A stretch of DNA of 64,000 nt. Source: Longibaculum muris (lineage in GTDB: Bacteria > Bacillota_I > Bacilli_A > Erysipelotrichales > Coprobacillaceae). The notes beneath the pieces were generated by a model, which was given only the letters and a program-made list of their open reading frames with translations, was not told the origin of the DNA and ran no database searches. Of the stretch, positions 7,843 through 39,527 are shown in pieces (position 1 is the stretch's first letter; every line of letters begins with the position of its first letter). The DNA is taken from contig NZ_SMCQ01000011.1 of the NCBI RefSeq assembly GCF_004343035.1, positions 1 to 64,000 of the forward strand, read 5' to 3'. Position numbers and translations under genes: made by a program.

Positions 7843-9129
7843 TTAACGATCTAAGAAATCCTTTAAACGTTTTGAACGTGATGGGTGTTTTAACTTTCTT
7901 AAAGCTTTTGCTTCAATTTGACGAATACGTTCACGTGTTACGTTAAATTCTTTTCCAACTTCTTCAAGAGTTCTTGTACGTCCATCATCTAAACCAAATC
8001 TTAATCGTAAAACTTTTTCTTCACGGTCTGTTAATTCTAATAAAACTTCATTTAATTCATCTTTTAATAATTCATTTGCAGCATAATCATCAGGTGACAT
8101 AGCTCCTTCATCTTCAATGAAATCTCCTAAATGAGAATCATCTTCTTCACCAATAGGTGTTTCTAATGAAACTGGTTCTAATGAGATTTTTTGAATTTCA
8201 CGTACTTTTTCAGGTGTCATACCATCCATTTTTTCAGAAATTTCTTCAGCTGAAGGTTCTCTCCCTAATTCTTGAATCAATTGTCTTTGAACACGTGTTA
8301 ACTTATTAATCGTTTCAACCATATGAACAGGAATACGAATTGTTCTTGCTTGATCGGCAATTGCACGTGTAATAGCTTGACGAATCCACCATGTTGCATA
8401 TGTAGAGAATTTAAATCCTTTTGTATAATCAAACTTTTCAACAGCTTTGATTAACCCCATATTTCCTTCTTGAATTAAATCCAAGAACAACATTCCTCTA
8501 CCAACATATCTTTTAGCAATAGAAACAACCAAACGTAAGTTGGCAGCTGCCAATTTCTTTTTCGCTTCCTCATCACCAACAAGGATTCTCTTTGCCAAAT
8601 CAATTTCTTCATCATGACTTAATAATTCAACACGACCAATTTCTTTTAAATACATCTTAACAGGATCATTGATTTTAACATTGCTTCCTAATTGATTATC
8701 ATCGTCATCATCATGATCACTATATAAAGTCGCTGTATCGCTTGTCATCATGTCAAAATCACCAACGAAATCTAAATCTGGAACATCGCCACCAAGATCA
8801 ACGTCTAAACCTTCTAAATCCTCTAAATCTTCTAGTCCTTCTAATGATTCTAAACCTTCTAAATCATCAAGATCTCCTGCGACTCCTTTTAATAGCTCCT
8901 CATCATCAATTTCAAGAGCATCTAATCCATCTTCAATCACAATATGACTATCAGTAATAAATTCTAATAATTCTTCAGCTGATTCATCATCTAGATCATA
9001 CTTTGTTAAAAAAGCATCTAAATCATCTTGAGATAAAGTTCCACCTAAAGCATCAGCTGTTTCCTTAATTAAATTCTTTAAATCTTCAAATGTGACTGGT
9101 GCTGCTTTTTTCTTTGTTTCTTTTTTCAT
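7843..9129 (-). CDS. sigA: Primary sigma factor SigA/RpoD
   Basis: 428 residues. Region 1.1 (about 10-75) is followed by an unusual acidic Leu-Glu-Gly-rich segment (about 85-125), then the core: region 1.2 ([13 protein letters not shown]), region 2 ([34 protein letters not shown]), region 3 ([11 protein letters not shown]) and region 4 with the helix-turn-helix ([20 protein letters not shown]). Directs RNA polymerase to housekeeping promoters. ATG overlaps the dnaG stop (ATGA) and has AAGGAG upstream, so it is coupled to dnaG in the macromolecular-synthesis operon. Confidence 0.98.
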
Positions 9130-28000: not shown

Positions 28001-28077
28001 GGCGGTTGTGGCGAAGTGGTTAACGCACCGGATTGTGGCTCCGGCATTCGTGAGTTCGATTCTCATCAACCGCCCCA
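28001..28077 (+). tRNA. tRNA-His (GTG) with encoded CCA
   Basis: A full cloverleaf can be folded: extra 5' G (28001) opposite the discriminator C (28074), acceptor GCGGTTG/CAACCGC, D-arm GCG/CGC, anticodon GTG at 28035-28037, T-arm with TTCGATT loop, and genomic CCA at 28075-28077. The extra G is the His identity element. The 3' end is duplicated 2.7 kb downstream. Confidence 0.97.
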
Positions 28078-28093
28078 TATAAGTTATTAACTC
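28061..28093 (+). repeat. att-like repeat, copy 1 (3' end of tRNA-His)
   Basis: The last 17 bases of the tRNA and the next 16 bases recur at 30782-30814 without gaps, 29 of 33 identical. tRNA 3' ends are standard targets of tyrosine recombinases, so this is the likely attachment core of a past integration. Confidence 0.65.
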
Positions 28094-28112
28094 CTAGAAA
28101 TAGGAGTTTTTA
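28089..28112 (+). terminator. tRNA-His terminator
   Basis: AACTCCTA (28089-28096), tetraloop GAAA, TAGGAGTT (28101-28108) and a T-run. Confidence 0.9.
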
Positions 28113-28783
28113 TTATATCAAAATATATATCCACCGAAAATCCACCAATTTTTTTATTTTATAAGTTTACCTAACTCTCAACCTAATTTGATACCATCTT
28201 CAAAAGCATTGATAATGGTAAAATTTTCAATATCGATCCATGAATTGGTAATATCATCAATCATACTGAAAAGTATAAATATCAGACAAATATAAATAAT
28301 CTAATACAGTTATTAAAAGTTAATCCTGCAAAATTGTTAAATATGAAAGGTGGGATGTCTATATCAAGAAACCAACAACACTCAAATATAGAGTTGATGA
28401 CAGACGAAATCCAGTTATCAAAAAACTAAAAAAGACTTTTTAAGAAAGGCCAGTTAAAGTAGTATAGACATCTCTTTCTAAGAAAATTATAACTTAAAAA
28501 ATCAAAAAAGCATTAAAAATGATAAGTATCATTTTTTGGTTAAAAAAGAAAAAAGAGGGAATTTTGAATTTAATCAAATATTCTCTCCATTGTAATGTCA
28601 TTAAATTGACGACATTGGTTTCAGCTATGAAACCTTTATTATACAAATAATTAAATAACCTATATCTTATTTACATCTTACAAGTATCAATTCTTCATGA
28701 ATCGCTTATCACTATATAATAAATAGCTTAAGCATAGAAAATCTAAGTAATTAAAATTATTCTTAATTTTTTAATATATAGAT
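28113..28783. other. Degenerate intergenic stretch after tRNA-His
   Basis: No intact gene is visible. Two CCACC units 11 bp apart (28131-28146) lie near the att core. A 10-bp inverted pair GATGTCTATA (28354-28363) and TATAGACATC (28463-28472) brackets about 120 bp that reads in one frame as a charged fragment (VYIKKPTTLKYRVDDRR) without a start, possibly a remnant of a mobile-element protein. I could not identify it. Confidence 0.4.
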
Positions 28784-28826
28784 TAAATATATATTGTTGA
28801 CATATATATTTAACGATGATAACATT
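28784..28826 (+). promoter_or_regulatory. Promoter with palindromic operator
   Basis: TTGACA (28798-28803), 17-bp spacer, TAACAT (28821-28826). A perfect 12-bp inverted repeat (TTAAATATATAT at 28784-28795, its complement at 28803-28814, 7-nt spacer) covers the -35. Probable repressor site, perhaps for one of the nearby PadR proteins. Confidence 0.65.
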
Positions 28827-28867
28827 TAGATATAAATAATTAAGCGATTACATAGAAGGAGGTTTGC

Positions 28868-29299
28868 ATGATGAAAATACGATTTAAAGTATTATTGATT
28901 ATCGTAGAAATTCTACTATTTTTATCTTTTTTTCTTACTTGGTTTAGTGATGGAGATTTAATAACTTTAAGAGGTGTGGATCTCCATATATTTATTGTTT
29001 GGTTGTTTTTCTTTTATATTGGTACATGGTTTTCTGTATTTTCTTTATCGAAGAAATTTCATATAATATCTTTGATTGCATCTATCTGTGTTTTCTTACT
29101 AGAGATATATAAATTCTTTACTTGGCACTATTTAACTATAACAGGATATATTAGTCTAACATTTTCTCTGGATATGACATCTTTTGGATTCTATTTATCT
29201 TTATTTATTTGTTTTTCGAACATTATATTGAAAATCATATGGATGAAACTATGCATTAAATCAATACATAAAAATGAAAAAGAGATTATTATAAAATAA
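28868..29299 (+). CDS. Small four-helix membrane protein, unknown
   Basis: 143 residues, four predicted helices (about 5-25, 40-60, 65-85, 100-125) and a basic C-terminus (KSIHKNEKE). AAGGAGG precedes ATG 28868. No family is recognised. It lies between the two att-like repeats and is controlled by a promoter with a palindromic operator. Confidence 0.7.
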   Translation: MMKIRFKVLLIIVEILLFLSFFLTWFSDGDLITLRGVDLHIFIVWLFFFYIGTWFSVFSLSKKFHIISLIASICVFLLEIYKFFTWHYLTITGYISLTFSLDMTSFGFYLSLFICFSNIILKIIWMKLCIKSIHKNEKEIIIK

Positions 29300-29304
29300 A
29301 TTTT

Positions 29305-29338
29305 TACTGTTGATTATAGAATGAATCAACAGTATTTT
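29305..29338 (+). terminator. Terminator of the membrane protein gene
   Basis: Perfect 11-bp stem (29305-29315 with 29324-29334), 8-nt loop, T-run after it. The following 29339-29643 holds no gene that I can support. Confidence 0.85.
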
Positions 29339-29643
29339 TAAGTAAAAAATATATTTCAATATCTTGGTATTTCTCATTAAAATAAGATAAAAAATCATTA
29401 TTTAGTTAATTTATATAACTATTACTTTATTGGTCATGAGGTATATGATGAAAATTCTATTGTGTTTTTATGATCAATTAGGTGTAATTTTATGCTTCTT
29501 CTTAAGTTATTATCACATTCCTGATACATGTAACGAATCAAGGTAAATTTTGAGTGTCAAAAAAATTAATATATAGAGAAACTAAATATCCATATTGAAT
29601 TAGAAAGTGATATTTGTTAGAATTTTACAAAAGAGGTGTCATC

Positions 29644-29973
29644 ATGTCTAAAAAAAATAATTTCTTTCGGTTAGAGATGTTGTATTTAAAAATTCTAGAT
29701 GAAAAAGATTGTTACGGTTATGAGATTACACATACCCTAAAAGAAAGAACGCATGGAAAAATTAATGTTAAAGAAGGGACCATGTATCCTATTCTTTACA
29801 AATTTGAGGAAATTGGATTTATAACAAGCAAAAAAAAGTTGGTTGGTAAAAAAATGACAAGAGTTTATTATCATTTGGAACCCTCTGGAAAAGAATACCT
29901 TGATAAAATTTATAGTGAATATAAAGACATGGTTAATGTAATTAGTGATTTAATGGAGGGAGAATATGAATAA
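29644..29973 (+). CDS. PadR-family transcriptional regulator
   Basis: 109 residues from ATG 29644 (GAGGTG upstream; an upstream reading from 29614 is not needed). PadR features: FRLEMLYLKIL, CYGYEIT, VKEGTMYPILYKFEE and the wing VGKKMTRVYYHLEPSGKEYL. Close homologue of the oppositely oriented PadR at 31333-31650. Its stop overlaps the start of a HAAS-domain gene, a standard pairing. Confidence 0.92.
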   Translation: MSKKNNFFRLEMLYLKILDEKDCYGYEITHTLKERTHGKINVKEGTMYPILYKFEEIGFITSKKKLVGKKMTRVYYHLEPSGKEYLDKIYSEYKDMVNVISDLMEGEYE

Positions 29974-30340
29974 AGATATAAAACGTTACTTTAAAGAATG
30001 CCAATATTTATTTGCATATTGTGGAAAAAAAGAAAGAAAATATCTTAATAAGTTAAAAGATAATATCGATGATGGAAGTCATGAATTAAACTATGATGAA
30101 ATCGTTGAAAGATTGGGTTCACCACAAGAAGTCATTATGAATTATTATAATCAAGAAGATATTTATGAATTAATTAAGAAAGCAAAGTTTGTTAGAACAT
30201 TAAGAACCATTTTTATATTATTTTTGATTATATGTACATTATTCTTTTCATTTAGAGCTTATATATATCAAAAGACATATGAGGAAGTCAAAGATAGTAA
30301 TAATAGTTATTTTGAAGAATCAATTGAAATCATAGAATAA
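29966..30340 (+). CDS. HAAS-domain (DUF1700-like) membrane protein
   Basis: 124 residues. N-terminal helical HAAS-type domain (about 1-65; YDEIVERLGSPQEVIMNYY) followed by one transmembrane helix (FILFLIICTLFFSF) and a short outside tail. Overlaps the PadR gene by 8 nt (ATGAATAA). HAAS proteins partner PadR regulators in sensing or toggling membrane functions; mechanism is not established. A decayed copy lies at 31171-31340 on the other strand. Confidence 0.85.
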   Translation: MNKDIKRYFKECQYLFAYCGKKERKYLNKLKDNIDDGSHELNYDEIVERLGSPQEVIMNYYNQEDIYELIKKAKFVRTLRTIFILFLIICTLFFSFRAYIYQKTYEEVKDSNNSYFEESIEIIE

Positions 30341-30645
30341 AAAGAGAAAAGATTTTTTTAAAAAATTATTGTATTATTAATGAGTATAACTGCAATGATG
30401 TCTATTTCAAATGTAAATGTGTTAGATAATATCAATTTGTATACTTATATAGAAGAACAATTTCATGATGGAAGTTATATTGAAGTAACGATTGAATAAA
30501 ATAATGCAAAATCTTCAAAAAGTGGTACAACTGCATTAGCTAGTGTTACTGCCAAACAATATCATCAAGATTGAAATGTTCTAAAAACAATAAATCGAGC
30601 AGTCAAATTAGCATGTACTGCTTCAGGGAAACTTTCTTAAAAGTA
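30341..30645 (+). pseudogene. Decayed gene for a small secreted protein
   Basis: A basic start (KKRKDFFKKLL) and a signal-like SITAMMSISNVNV lie in different frames around 30350-30410. The latter frame continues TYIEEQFHDGSYIEVTIE, stop (30497-30499), SSKSGTTALASVTAKQYHQD, stop, then TINRAVKLACTASGKLS. Two in-frame stops and a frameshift break it. The same peptide patterns appear in the opposite cassette at 30893-31140, so this was once a coding gene of the PadR-HAAS cassette. Confidence 0.65.
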
Positions 30646-30781
30646 AAGTTATAAAAATTCCCACCAAAATAACACCAAAAATGATAAAAAAGTATGTCTT
30701 AGTATATAAATTTATACAAAGATATACTTTTAAAATGACTTAAATACAGTGTTTTTTATCATCTTTTATGCATTGACATGA

Positions 30782-30814
30782 TCTCATCAACCACTCCATA
30801 TAAGAGATTAACTC
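30782..30814 (+). repeat. att-like repeat, copy 2
   Basis: Gapless 33-bp match (29 identical) to 28061-28093. It lacks the rest of the tRNA. CCACC-type repeats (30660-30676) lie on its inner side, as they do beside copy 1. Confidence 0.65.
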
Positions 30815-30892
30815 TTTAATATATGAGATATAATCTTCATTTTTAACTTATACCAAAATTATAATTAAGAATACTATTTGAATATTTTATTA

Positions 30893-31140
30893 AGACAATT
30901 TACCAGATGAACTACAAGTTAATTTTAAAGTTCTATCAACAGTATTAGTGCAGATACCTAAAAATGTATATTGCTTTGCCATTTGAATCTTTAAAAGCAC
31001 TAGTCTTACTTTTGCTCGTTGTAGTGGCTCTAGTAATTAGACAATCTTATTCAACGGTTATTTCAATATATGATTCATCTTCAAAAACTTCTTCTATAAA
31101 AGTATTTTCTATTGATTTTGTTTCATAAGCAAATATGTAG
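30893..31140 (-). pseudogene. Decayed second copy of the small secreted protein gene
   Basis: Minus-strand reading gives SIENTFIEEVFEDESYIEITVE, a stop at 31049-31047, then TTTSKSKTSAFKDSNGKA, and after a frameshift AKQYTFLGICTNTVDRTLKL followed by TCSSSGKL. These match the plus-strand remnant segment by segment. Confidence 0.65.
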
Positions 31141-31170
31141 TTAGTATTTAGAAAATAATAACTGTTCTCC

Positions 31171-31340
31171 TTAATTTTGTTCTATTGTAATTTCTTTAGT
31201 TATAATATTTTGTTCTTTAGCTTCTTCAATTGTTTTGTATTCCAAGTAACAAATTAAAGATAATGCATTAATCAAAATTACACCAATGCTAACAAAAAAT
31301 GTTTACAATTTCTTAGATATTTCTTAATGACTTTATCCAT
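31171..31340 (-). pseudogene. Remnant of a HAAS-domain gene with internal deletion
   Basis: ATG 31340 overlaps the PadR stop by 8 nt, exactly as in the intact cassette. MDKVIKKYLRNCKHF matches the intact protein's start. About 55 codons are then missing, and the frame changes into ILINALSLICYLEYKTIEEAKEQ, matching its membrane helix and tail. Confidence 0.75.
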
Positions 31341-31650
31341 TTAAATTTCCCTCCCACAACATAATATTGTTGATATTATAAATAGTTTCAAGATATTCTT
31401 CCCCTTTAGACTCAATATGATAATACACACGTGTTAATCTCTTACCAACCAAAACTTTTTGATCACTTATATATCCTTCATCTACTAATCTATATAAGAT
31501 TGGATACAAAGTTCCTTCTTTAATTTGTATTTTATCATTTGAAAGTTTAGCAAGTAATTGAGTGATTTGATAACCATAACAATCTTGTTGTTTTATAATT
31601 TTTAACAATAACATTTCTAATTTAAAAAAATTATTTGATGGTCTAGACAT
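31333..31650 (-). CDS. PadR-family transcriptional regulator (second, inverted cassette)
   Basis: 105 residues, homologous along its length to the PadR at 29644 (NNFFKLEMLLLKI, CYGYQIT, IKEGTLYPILYRL, VGKRLTRVYYHIESKGEEYL). The C-terminus is shorter and ends LWEGNLNG, suggesting a small deletion. TTGGGAGGTAAGT precedes the ATG. Its partner genes are dead, so its role may be lost. Confidence 0.88.
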   Translation of the reverse strand: MSRPSNNFFKLEMLLLKIIKQQDCYGYQITQLLAKLSNDKIQIKEGTLYPILYRLVDEGYISDQKVLVGKRLTRVYYHIESKGEEYLETIYNINNIMLWEGNLNG

Positions 31651-31718
31651 ACTTACCTCCCAAACTCATTAAATCAAATATAATATTAACTTCAATACAT
31701 AGAGCAAAAAAGTAATTG

Positions 31719-31746
31719 TTGACACGTGTAATATGAATGATACAAT
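31719..31746 (+). promoter_or_regulatory. Strong promoter upstream of a dead secreted-protein gene
   Basis: TTGACA (31719-31724), 16-bp spacer, TACAAT (31741-31746), followed by AAGGAGG at 31781-31787. The promoter looks intact although the gene behind it is not. Confidence 0.7.
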
Positions 31747-32834: not shown

Positions 32835-34859
32835 ATGAAAAAAATATTCTTTTTCTTCATTATCTTAAGTAGTATTTTAATGTTTTATTCATTTATAGAT
32901 ATTTATAAAGAACAGGATATTCAAGATGTCATTGAAAATTTTGAAATCATGGCAGATAAACCATTGCAATCTATTACTTTTACATCAAATATCTATAAAC
33001 ATAATCAACAGTTTATTTACGATTTAAAACAATTAGCTGATGAAGATCATATAACAATAGTTAAACAAAGTATAGATATTAAAAATAATTGCTATATTAA
33101 TCATATTTATACTCACGAGGATTTATCTACAATCACAAATCTTGCGATTAAAGATAAAATAGATTTTTCTTCATTAAATACGAAAAATTTTTATTCTAAT
33201 TATCAAAAAAATCAATCAGAACTTTTTATTTTAAATCATGATATTTTAGTAGATATTAAACCATTTTCATATTTAATTAATAATAGATATTGCATTGGTA
33301 CTTATGATTTTTATGCTTCTACCAAAAAAGATTTATCTCATTTCATTGATTCACTTAACCAAAAATATTCATCATATATTGAACAATTTAATGATTTTGA
33401 AAAAGAACCACATGCATCTTATTTTTTGAATCCAGAAATGAAAATTTTAATCTTATTTTCATTTATTTTATTTGCCACGTTTTTAGCTATTTGGATTTCC
33501 AAGAATAGTTATAAAAATACCGTTTATTATCTTCATGGTTATTCTACTTTAGAAATGTATTTTGAATTATATGGAATAACATTTGTTCAAGGAATAGGAA
33601 TTTCTATTTTATCTTTAGTTATTTTATTTTTAATAAGAATTCAACAGATTAATGTAAGAACAATACCTTTTATTATTGATTGTTTAAAATATCTAGGTAT
33701 TCAATGGTTAGGCATTTTTAGTATTTTCTTTATTTATATTTTTATTCAAAAATGTCAACATAGTGCAATTTTATTAAAAAAGAAAAATATAAATAAAATT
33801 CTTTTACGAGGTCACTTCTTTATTAAATTGTTAAGTCTTATTATATTACTACCTCCTCTAACAAGTCATTGTCTTGCAATTGAAAATAATATAAATACTC
33901 ATCGATATATGAAAGAACAATTTAATGGCATAGAAAATTATCAACATATCTATAGTATGAAATTTGAGTACCAGGATTCTCAATATCTTGAATCATATGA
34001 TGGAAAAACAAATAAAGTTACTAAAATATATCAGGATGCTTATGATCTTCTTGAAAAGAATAAAGCCATATATTATACGAAAGAACCTCTATACTATACT
34101 TCGGGAACACTCATAAGAACAAACGCTAACTATCTTTCATTGTGTCCACTTATAGATCCATTAGGTCATCAAATAACTATGCAAATAGATAATCAAAAGA
34201 AATATCTCTTTGTACCAGAAGATATATATAATACTATTCACGAAGAAGATTTCTTAATAAGCCCAAATGATTCAATTGAGAAAATTGCCATTGCATCAAA
34301 TCAAAAATATATTAAATATTTGGATGGACAGTATAATCAAGAAACTATTCATCAACCCACTTGTATTTTTATTGATTCCAAACAAAGTAATCGCAAACCT
34401 TATGGAGGTCTTTATATTCCTCTTAGTGAAAATAAAATAAACGATTTATTAAAAAACACTCCTTTTGAAAATACATTATTAATGAAAAGTTTAGAAGATA
34501 CACTTAAACAAGAAACAATGCTTTTACCTTCACTTATTAAAAATGATTTAGAAATAGCAATGTGTTTCTTTATTTTCTTAGGTGGTTTAGTTTTTGAATA
34601 TTTTTATTTATACTACAATATCTATCGTAAAGATTTTGCAATTAAGAAAATGCATGGATACTCTTTTATTGAATTAACCTATCCTATCTTTGTTGAAAGT
34701 ATATCCGTTTATGCACTGAGTTTCTTATATTTTATTATTCAACAATATCAACCATTGACTTTCTTATTCATACTACTATTCATTGATATGATTATTCATC
34801 TTTTGATTTATGGATATCTATATCATCGAAAAATATCTACTCTACTTTGGGAGGAATAA
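32835..34859 (+). CDS. Bacteriocin-associated integral membrane protein (lactococcin-972-type ABC permease, DUF1430-like)
   Basis: 674 residues. One N-terminal helix, a large outside domain (about 30-195), a cluster of about four helices (200-345), a second outside domain (350-570) and three C-terminal helices (575-670). This duplicated FtsX-like layout with an adjacent ATPase is typical of the permease/immunity protein of lactococcin-972-type systems. It is 3 nt from the ATPase gene. No bacteriocin precursor with that family's signature is visible. Confidence 0.8.
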   Translation: MKKIFFFFIILSSILMFYSFIDIYKEQDIQDVIENFEIMADKPLQSITFTSNIYKHNQQFIYDLKQLADEDHITIVKQSIDIKNNCYINHIYTHEDLSTITNLAIKDKIDFSSLNTKNFYSNYQKNQSELFILNHDILVDIKPFSYLINNRYCIGTYDFYASTKKDLSHFIDSLNQKYSSYIEQFNDFEKEPHASYFLNPEMKILILFSFILFATFLAIWISKNSYKNTVYYLHGYSTLEMYFELYGITFVQGIGISILSLVILFLIRIQQINVRTIPFIIDCLKYLGIQWLGIFSIFFIYIFIQKCQHSAILLKKKNINKILLRGHFFIKLLSLIILLPPLTSHCLAIENNINTHRYMKEQFNGIENYQHIYSMKFEYQDSQYLESYDGKTNKVTKIYQDAYDLLEKNKAIYYTKEPLYYTSGTLIRTNANYLSLCPLIDPLGHQITMQIDNQKKYLFVPEDIYNTIHEEDFLISPNDSIEKIAIASNQKYIKYLDGQYNQETIHQPTCIFIDSKQSNRKPYGGLYIPLSENKINDLLKNTPFENTLLMKSLEDTLKQETMLLPSLIKNDLEIAMCFFIFLGGLVFEYFYLYYNIYRKDFAIKKMHGYSFIELTYPIFVESISVYALSFLYFIIQQYQPLTFLFILLFIDMIIHLLIYGYLYHRKISTLLWEE

Positions 34860-34862
34860 CTC

Positions 34863-35492
34863 ATGAACGAAATATGTATAAAGAATTTAGATAAGGTTTA
34901 TTCACAAAAAATAGTTTTTAAAGATTTTCATTATACTTTTAAAGCCGGTAAGATTTATGCCATTATTGGCGAAAGTGGAAGTGGTAAGTCAACGTTATTA
35001 AATATGATTGGTTTATTAGACGATCCAACTCATGGTAGTATTTGTTATGATCATGTAAATATTAATTCTCATCATAAAAAGACCTTATGGTATTTAAGAA
35101 ATAAAATTAATTATTTATTTCAAAACTATGCATTAATTGAAACTGATACTGTTTTAAATAATCTAAAAATTGCTTTAAAACATGTTCGTTCTTCACATAA
35201 AGAACAGCTTATCAAAGATAGTCTTAAGAAAGTTGGCTTAGAAGGTTATGAAAAAGAAAAGGTTTATTGTCTTTCAGGTGGCCAACAACAAAGAGTTGCT
35301 CTAGCAAGATTGTATTTAAAGCCTGCTGATGTCATTTTAGCTGATGAGCCAACAGGAAACCTTGATGAAAAGAATAAAAAATTAGTGCTTGAAGCATTAA
35401 AAGAATTTGCTGAGGAAGGGAAAATTGTGATTGTGGCGACACATGATTTATCAATTGTTCATCAATGTGATGAAGTCATTGAATTAACATGA
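34863..35492 (+). CDS. ABC transporter ATP-binding protein, bacteriocin-export (lactococcin 972) group
   Basis: 209 residues, one nucleotide-binding domain: Walker A GESGSGKST near residue 38, Q-loop LFQNYAL, signature LSGGQQQRVALARL near 138, Walker B VILADEPTGNLDE, and the switch His in VATHDLS. MacB/LolD-like. GGGAGGAATAACTC precedes the ATG. Works with the upstream permease; a short hairpin terminator follows. Confidence 0.93.
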   Translation: MNEICIKNLDKVYSQKIVFKDFHYTFKAGKIYAIIGESGSGKSTLLNMIGLLDDPTHGSICYDHVNINSHHKKTLWYLRNKINYLFQNYALIETDTVLNNLKIALKHVRSSHKEQLIKDSLKKVGLEGYEKEKVYCLSGGQQQRVALARLYLKPADVILADEPTGNLDEKNKKLVLEALKEFAEEGKIVIVATHDLSIVHQCDEVIELT

Positions 35493-36709: not shown

Positions 36710-37891
<1,182 letters not shown>

Positions 37892-37897
37892 CTTTCT

Positions 37898-37935
37898 AAA
37901 GAACTATAACCTATTGATTATAGTTCTTTTTTAGA
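37898..37935 (+). terminator. Terminator after the first collagen-like gene
   Basis: Perfect 12-bp stem (37898-37909 with 37918-37929), 8-nt loop, T-run. Confidence 0.9.
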
Positions 37936-37953
37936 AACAAAGGAGGTGAAATT

Positions 37954-38457
37954 ATGGAGCAAGAGCATCTTTGTCAATGTTGTCGTCCTATCAATATTAA
38001 TTGTCTTTCTGGTATAACAGGTCCTACAGGTCCAACTGGTCCTAGTGGTGGTCTAGCTAATCAATCATTTGCAAGTTTTGCTAATTACGCAACAATTTTC
38101 ACAAATAATGCACCTATGAATCTTTATCAAGATGTTGCTGATATAACCGGAAATATTACCCCATTAAATACAACAACTATTCAATTACAACCAGGCTTTT
38201 ATCAAATTCAATACTCTGTTAGTGCCTTATTAACTAATCCAGGTTATATACAAATTACACCATCATACAATGGAGCATCGCATATTGAGTTTGGTATTTA
38301 TGCCAATATCAATACAGCTCGTTCATCTGCATGGGGTAGTCAATCTATTATTATTGAAGTTCCAACAACAACCACATTCACATTAACATTCAGTTCTAAT
38401 ACAACGCACACTGAAGGACAACTCACTTTGACAATTTTAAAATTAGAGCGTTCCTAA
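37954..38457 (+). CDS. Short collagen-like protein with a C1q/TNF-like C-terminal domain
   Basis: 167 residues. N-terminal CQCCRPININC, only about four collagen triplets ([13 protein letters not shown]), then a beta-rich domain of about 125 residues (NYATIFTNNAP, YQIQYSVSALL, TLTFSSNTTHTEGQLTLTIL) resembling the BclA C-terminal trimerisation domain. AAAGGAGGTGAAATT precedes the ATG. Shares the Cys motif with both neighbours, so it probably joins the same layer. Confidence 0.82.
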   Translation: MEQEHLCQCCRPININCLSGITGPTGPTGPSGGLANQSFASFANYATIFTNNAPMNLYQDVADITGNITPLNTTTIQLQPGFYQIQYSVSALLTNPGYIQITPSYNGASHIEFGIYANINTARSSAWGSQSIIIEVPTTTTFTLTFSSNTTHTEGQLTLTILKLERS

Positions 38458-38543
38458 AAATAATGTTTTATTCACAAGATAAGGGTTAATCCCATAGTCT
38501 CATTTTTTCTATTCACATATATTATGATAAAGGAGGTGAAACT

Positions 38544-39527
38544 ATGAATAACTCATATTACAATCATGGTCAAAATATGAATACAGTGCAATGTCAACCA
38601 CAAAATAATTGTACTTCTCGTACGTCATGTCAATGCACTTGGTGTCCAAAATGTCGTTGTTGTCCTCCAGTTACTGTTAATTGTGGAAGTTTGGTAACTG
38701 GTCCGACTGGTCCAACTGGTCCTCAAGGGATTCAAGGTATTCCTGGACAACCAGGAATGATGGGACCAATGGGTCCACAAGGAATCCAAGGAAATACAGG
38801 TATAACTGGTATGACTGGCGCAACTGGTCCAACCGGTCCAACCGGAGCTAATGGTATTCCTGGCCCTACTGGAGCCACTGGAAATACCGGTCCAACTGGA
38901 GCAACCGGAGCCACTGGAGCTACCGGAGCGACTGGTATTGGCATCACAGGTGCAACCGGAGCCACTGGTGCGACTGGTCCTACTGGTCCAGCTGGTAATG
39001 GTAGTTCTACAATCATTCCATTTGCATCTGGAACACCTGTCATTTTAACAACAACAACTGGCGGGGTAGCAGGTAGTGCAGCTTTTGTTGGATTTGGAAA
39101 TTCAGCTTCTGGTTTATTTATTTCTGGAAATATTATTGATTTAACAAATCCTTGTGGAGCTCCATCAAATTTTGCTTTCATCATGCCTCGTGCTGGTACA
39201 ATTACGGCTATTGATGTTTTCTTCTCAACAACAACACCTTTATCTCTTGTTGGTACTAATCTCACAATCAAAGCTCAATTATATGAATCTGCAGCATCTA
39301 ATAATATTATGACAGCTATTCCAGGAACAGAAGTCACATTGACTCCAACTTTAACTGGTACACTCTTAACTGGCACAATAGCAAAAGGTTTATTAACAAA
39401 TTTAAATATTCCATTCAATGCACAAACACGATTAATGCTTGTTTTAACAGCAACTGCATCTGGAGTAAGTTTAACTAACAATATTGTTGGATATGCAAGT
39501 GGTGGTGTTTCTGTTGAAGCAAATTAA
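38544..39527 (+). CDS. Collagen-like exosporium protein, BclB-related
   Basis: 327 residues. The Cys-rich N-terminus ends in [11 protein letters not shown]. Collagen-like region about residues 53-150 mixes bacterial [13 protein letters not shown] triplets with GAT/GPT. The C-terminal domain (about 155-327; [39 protein letters not shown]) is the pattern of the BclB-related exosporium glycoproteins. AAAGGAGGTGAAACT precedes the ATG. No signal peptide. Confidence 0.87.

Follow-up and report, generated by a model that had tools for sequence, protein, structure and literature searches.

Introduction

CIMEs (cis-mobilizable elements) are known chiefly from streptococci (PMC5704250, PMC7563491). The path from IME to CIME starts with integration at a tRNA 3' end, which restores the gene, and continues with decay in which attL and attR are both kept (PMC5704250, PMC7563491). 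The resulting CIME lacks integration and transfer genes, and its rescue by later accretion is possible; classical examples span 1.2-13 kb (PMC5704250, PMC7563491). IMEs with a MobV relaxase, e.g., IMESag-rpsI and Tn4451, are canonical (PMC5704250). In a published survey, a CIME could be detected only where an intact element lay in tandem with it, and single ones, by the survey's own account, were missed (PMC7563491).

Here we describe an interval of 2.7 kb behind a tRNA-His gene that is very probably a solitary, decayed CIME derived from a MobV-type IME of that tRNA. It lies in a window (the whole stretch of DNA analyzed) of 64,000 nucleotides, which belongs to contig C11 of a 3.17 Mb genome (G000); all comparison genomes are from other genera. 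The first-pass annotation had taken the interval for an old, eroded genomic island. The remnant of an integrated element, with both of its ends kept, stands; the generic island gives way to a small MobV-type IME.

The Target Gene and Its Second 3' End

The tRNA-His gene (GTG, 28002-28077, plus strand), the presumptive integration target, is the only one found in the window by ARAGORN and matches the Rfam tRNA model; a genome search found no other copy. Its last 17 bases together with the following 16 bp (attL core, 28061-28093, plus strand) recur about 2.7 kb downstream at 30782-30814 on the same strand (attR core), without gaps and with 29/33 identities, exactly as the first-pass annotation had claimed. 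The next best place for the attL 33-mer on either strand of the window reaches 21/33. In a blastn search of the whole genome, the distal copy stretches to 30782-30827 (80%, E 4e-5), and no third copy of the tRNA-His end was found in G000. A terminator-like hairpin follows the tRNA gene on the element side of the core (28087-28112, plus strand; RNA fold -10.7 kcal/mol, z -3.5). The predicted fold is strong on the tRNA side and weaker at the distal copy, as would be expected if selection still acts only on the tRNA-side copy.

Intact and Decaying Elements in Related Genomes

Related genomes (Massilimicrobiota, Stoquefichus, and others) harbor IMEs of 7-11 kb at the same tRNA-His end, with the order tyrosine integrase, MobV relaxase, AAA ATPase, XRE regulator, and then cargo. 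The first three genes are found together at tRNA-His in G006, G025, G030, and G034. In G006 (Candidatus Stoquefichus MAG, JAETUM010000012.1), the insertion measures 6.9 kb and has a 17/17 copy of the tRNA end as its boundary; it carries the integrase (446 aa), the relaxase, the AAA ATPase, a small helix-turn-helix-like gene, an XRE-type regulator, and cargo. Relatives of this element occupy the same place in G030 (uncultured Massilimicrobiota MAG, CALUZM010000013.1), G025, and G034. The core copy is also 17/17 in G025 and G030, and 16/17 in G021, which holds a decayed version. Profile searches name the integrase (PF00589 with Arm-DNA-bind_4), the MobV relaxase (PF01076, with NF041497 above cut-off), and the ATPase (AAA_25). 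At E 1e-40 the integrase occurs in four of the 43 family genomes, always at tRNA-His, and the plasmid homologs of the G006 integrase are distant only. Inserted at a specific site and flanked by direct repeats, with a tyrosine integrase and a relaxase inside, the relatives have the make-up of IMEs.

Phages and ICEs also use tRNA 3' ends and tyrosine integrases, and on that general ground the interval might descend from a prophage or a self-transmissible ICE instead of an IME. We consider this very improbable: the elements that share its ends measure only 7-11 kb, encode a MobV relaxase, and have no phage structural or conjugation gene among their named genes, the absence of a T4SS being judged from few, small genes.

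Further stages can be seen at this tRNA. G034 carries a tandem of two elements, of which the distal one has decayed. In G030 an intact IME precedes a unit that has a left end and a right-arm fragment but no mobility genes. G017 retains a right-end remnant whose core has nearly faded. From empty site through intact MobV-type IME, tandem IMEs, and an IME beside a gutted unit to a solitary gutted unit, a series can be laid out at one tRNA gene in gut bacteria of this family.

In the Massilimicrobiota-type genomes (G025, G030; loci L033, L035), the att core and the left arm sites are separated by a complete tRNA-Gly gene, present both directly behind tRNA-His and behind the distal core. Each integration therefore seems to bring along a tRNA-Gly copy. 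Partial matches in the sister family, considered as further att copies, were rejected, being mostly 3' ends of tRNA-Gly(TCC) and in one case a tmRNA end.

The Two Ends of the Interval

Just inside both cores lie CACC-type pairs with 11-bp spacing: a CCACC pair on the left (28131-28135 and 28142-28146, together 28131-28146, plus strand) and a CACCAAAA pair on the right (30662-30669 and 30673-30680, together 30662-30680, plus strand). The same left pair is present at the left ends in G006, G025, and G030, and the right pair is conserved in G030, G025, and G017, and partly in G034 and G021. The arm-type repeats noticed in the first-pass annotation are therefore present inside both copies, and they recur at both ends of the integrase-bearing elements of the relatives.

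The similarity extends well beyond the repeats. The left end (28121-28264) is 74-81% identical to the elements of G030, G025, and G034: 81% to G030 el+8522-8666, 78% to G030 el+237-370, and 74-78% to G034 and G025. This match begins at the arm repeats and breaks off within the element's first small gene. At the right end (30600-30798), identity is 81% to G030 over 208 bp and 90% to G025 and G034 over 130-137 bp (30659-30788 and 30662-30798), with 74% over 88 bp to G021. Reversed-sequence controls gave a best E of 3e-4, against 1e-17 to 1e-51 for the end blocks with G025, G030, and G034. Among 60 genomes, every strong match to the right-end query fell at a tRNA-His locus, namely in G034, G030, G025, and G017. 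On this sequence comparison, the second copy of the tRNA-His end is a real attachment site, since the DNA just inside it is 81-90% identical to the right ends of integrase-bearing tRNA-His elements in three related genomes.

Could the second copy be what is left of a tRNA gene duplication, or have arisen by chance? Tandem tRNA-His genes do exist in G023, G011, and G029, and tRNA-Gly ends resemble the core, to the point that over the 17 tRNA bases the distal copy is equally near Gly and His. However, the tandem genes of the relatives are whole and 28 bp apart, whereas here the match begins abruptly within the tRNA and continues for 16 bp beyond it with 14/16 identities, and the DNA directly upstream shares about 90% identity with the right ends of elements. 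Duplication or chance has next to no probability, being refuted by this right-end identity and by the restriction of strong matches to tRNA-His among the 60 genomes.

Adjoining the right arm sites, an imperfect inverted repeat (30688-30731) is shared with G025, G030, and G034; it is possibly a site for a recombination factor or a terminator.

The Empty Site and the Neighborhood

No second copy of the tRNA-His end was found in G005. The chromosomal flank beyond the element (30834-31724) aligns in order with G005 DNA at +175 to +1508 after tRNA-His, at 71-76%. When the window flanks are joined at the tRNA end, they match G005 at 69%, against 49-52% with a shuffled right flank and 50% for the occupied window sequence. 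Judged by this alignment, G005, although of another genus, is an empty site, with its junction placed only to about 140 bp because that much G005 DNA after the terminator has no counterpart in the window. The expectation of the first-pass annotation that some relatives lack the interval is thereby borne out across genera: G005 does so, and its tRNA-His leads into the flank beyond the second copy.

The flank has features of its own. A second PadR gene (31333-31650, minus strand) and debris (together 30906-31650) lie beyond attR and are common to G005; G006 has a similar set of PadR, DUF6120, and secreted-protein genes beyond its attR. The segment may be an older accretion. In G005 and G021, which belong to one genus (loci L031, L032), the sequences on the two sides of tRNA-His have changed places, as an inversion of the tRNA segment would produce. 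Just outside the element, an ABC exporter pair (32835-35492) resembles lactococcin-972-type bacteriocin loci (TIGR03608 254.4 bits, just under cut-off; TIGR01654 weak). Three successive collagen-like genes with GPTGAT repeats follow at 36710-39527, and relatives of these lie near tRNA-His in G005 and G021.

Cargo and Missing Genes

The right-hand part of the interval reproduces the cargo of the intact G030 element. A PadR-family regulator (29644-29973, plus strand; PF03551, E 1e-18), a DUF6120 membrane protein (29966-30340, plus strand; PF19615, E 2.5e-11), and a broken gene for a secreted protein (30341-30640, plus strand) follow each other in the order and orientation of G030, where the first two occupy the same place. 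The set ends 142 bp before the core, compared with about 150 bp in G030. The secreted-protein gene, recovered by tblastn in two pieces (30365-30505 and 30512-30637), has in-frame stops and missing sequence, while G030, G034, and G006 have intact copies. For the version of this protein in the intact relative, an all-beta structure was modeled (pLDDT 80, two sequences only); its best matches in the PDB are weak (lmo2686, E 0.007, TM about 0.5). The three genes can thus be seen travelling together as cargo. DUF6120 by itself was rejected as an element marker, being found in 22 of the 43 family genomes. The interior PadR is 53% identical to the flank PadR and 42-43% identical to the PadR of the elements; being nearer to the former, it may have been exchanged as a cassette with the flank.

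About 1.4 kb separate the left end from the PadR gene; one gene only in this stretch has matches elsewhere, and the rest resembles no known element. The matching gene encodes a 143-aa membrane protein, counted here as cargo (28868-29299, plus strand), and is 75% identical in amino acids and 80% in DNA to a gene of G025 (contig C19; L116:7449-7859) that stands alone between glyA- and upp-like genes. The DNA identity to this lone gene speaks for horizontal exchange, and since the similarity ends at about the limits of the gene, possibly for transfer of a single gene. No second full copy of the debris at 28265-28747 was found in the genome.

How did the interval lose its mobility genes? The first-pass annotation had noted no intact integrase between the two copies. 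Searches by profile, tblastn, and DNA comparison agree and go further: no integrase, intact or broken, is present between the cores, so that the remnants it proposed to look for by profile are not there either, and the same methods revealed no trace of a relaxase, ATPase, or transfer gene. Internal deletion is the most likely cause of the loss of the integrase, since the left-end homology breaks inside the first gene of the element. Alternatively, the locus may never have held a full IME but a small, non-autonomous unit of two att ends and cargo, moved in trans by the integrase of an IME in the manner of a satellite. Units without mobility genes do recur at this site (the second unit of G030 and the remnant of G017). 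However, part of the element's first gene survives, cut short, at the left end, as a deletion would leave it, and elsewhere in the present genome the integrase has no close homolog, the nearest protein to the G006 integrase in G000 being 29% identical. We regard the satellite-like origin as unlikely. It is similarly unlikely that an att-bounded unit of this kind, lacking an integrase, is no dead debris but still a mobile minimal carrier of cargo, spreading in trans or in cis with the IMEs of tRNA-His in this family.

For the deletion of a resident IME, which we favor, we infer the following order of events. Through the action of a tyrosine integrase, an IME would have recombined into the sole tRNA-His gene of the genome at its 3' end; by bringing a substitute for that end, with a terminator, it would have kept the tRNA intact. 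The native 3' end would thereby have been displaced to a position 2.7 kb downstream, where it would now be decaying as attR. Later, a deletion within the element, with one end in the first gene past the left arm sites, would have taken the integrase, the relaxase, the ATPase, the small helix-turn-helix-like gene, and the XRE regulator. What remained would be attL with its arm sites, the cargo (the membrane protein and the PadR, DUF6120, and now broken secreted-protein genes), and attR with its arm sites. On its own the remnant would be immobile; its only way out would be the insertion of a further IME at one of its att sites, with which it could then travel, and this dependence is the defining trait of a CIME.

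Comparison with Known CIMEs and IMEs

Loss of mobility genes is a common fate of such elements, and here it can be set against intact relatives in related gut bacteria. With integrase and mobilization genes of its own absent, the interval is not an IME but derived from one. The elements of G006, G025, G030, and G034 resemble canonical MobV IMEs in their tyrosine integrase, MobV relaxase, and tRNA 3'-end target, although their integrase is only distantly like plasmid-borne ones; the window copy differs in having been reduced to ends and cargo.

Like a CIME, the interval lies at the 3' end of a housekeeping gene and keeps attL and attR, each core being followed inward by a conserved element end; these ends are 74-90% identical to IMEs at the same tRNA, and they enclose cargo without integrase, relaxase, or transfer genes. 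Its 2.7 kb fall within the 1.2-13 kb of classical CIMEs (PMC5704250, PMC7563491). Differently from these, its site is tRNA-His, its host genome is of Erysipelotrichales type and from the gut, and the attR core is altered: the four core differences may block recombination and could prevent mobilization in cis after accretion. It is, furthermore, solitary and not in tandem with an intact element, so that comparison of its ends with those of intact relatives has brought out a single CIME of the kind that the survey missed (PMC7563491).
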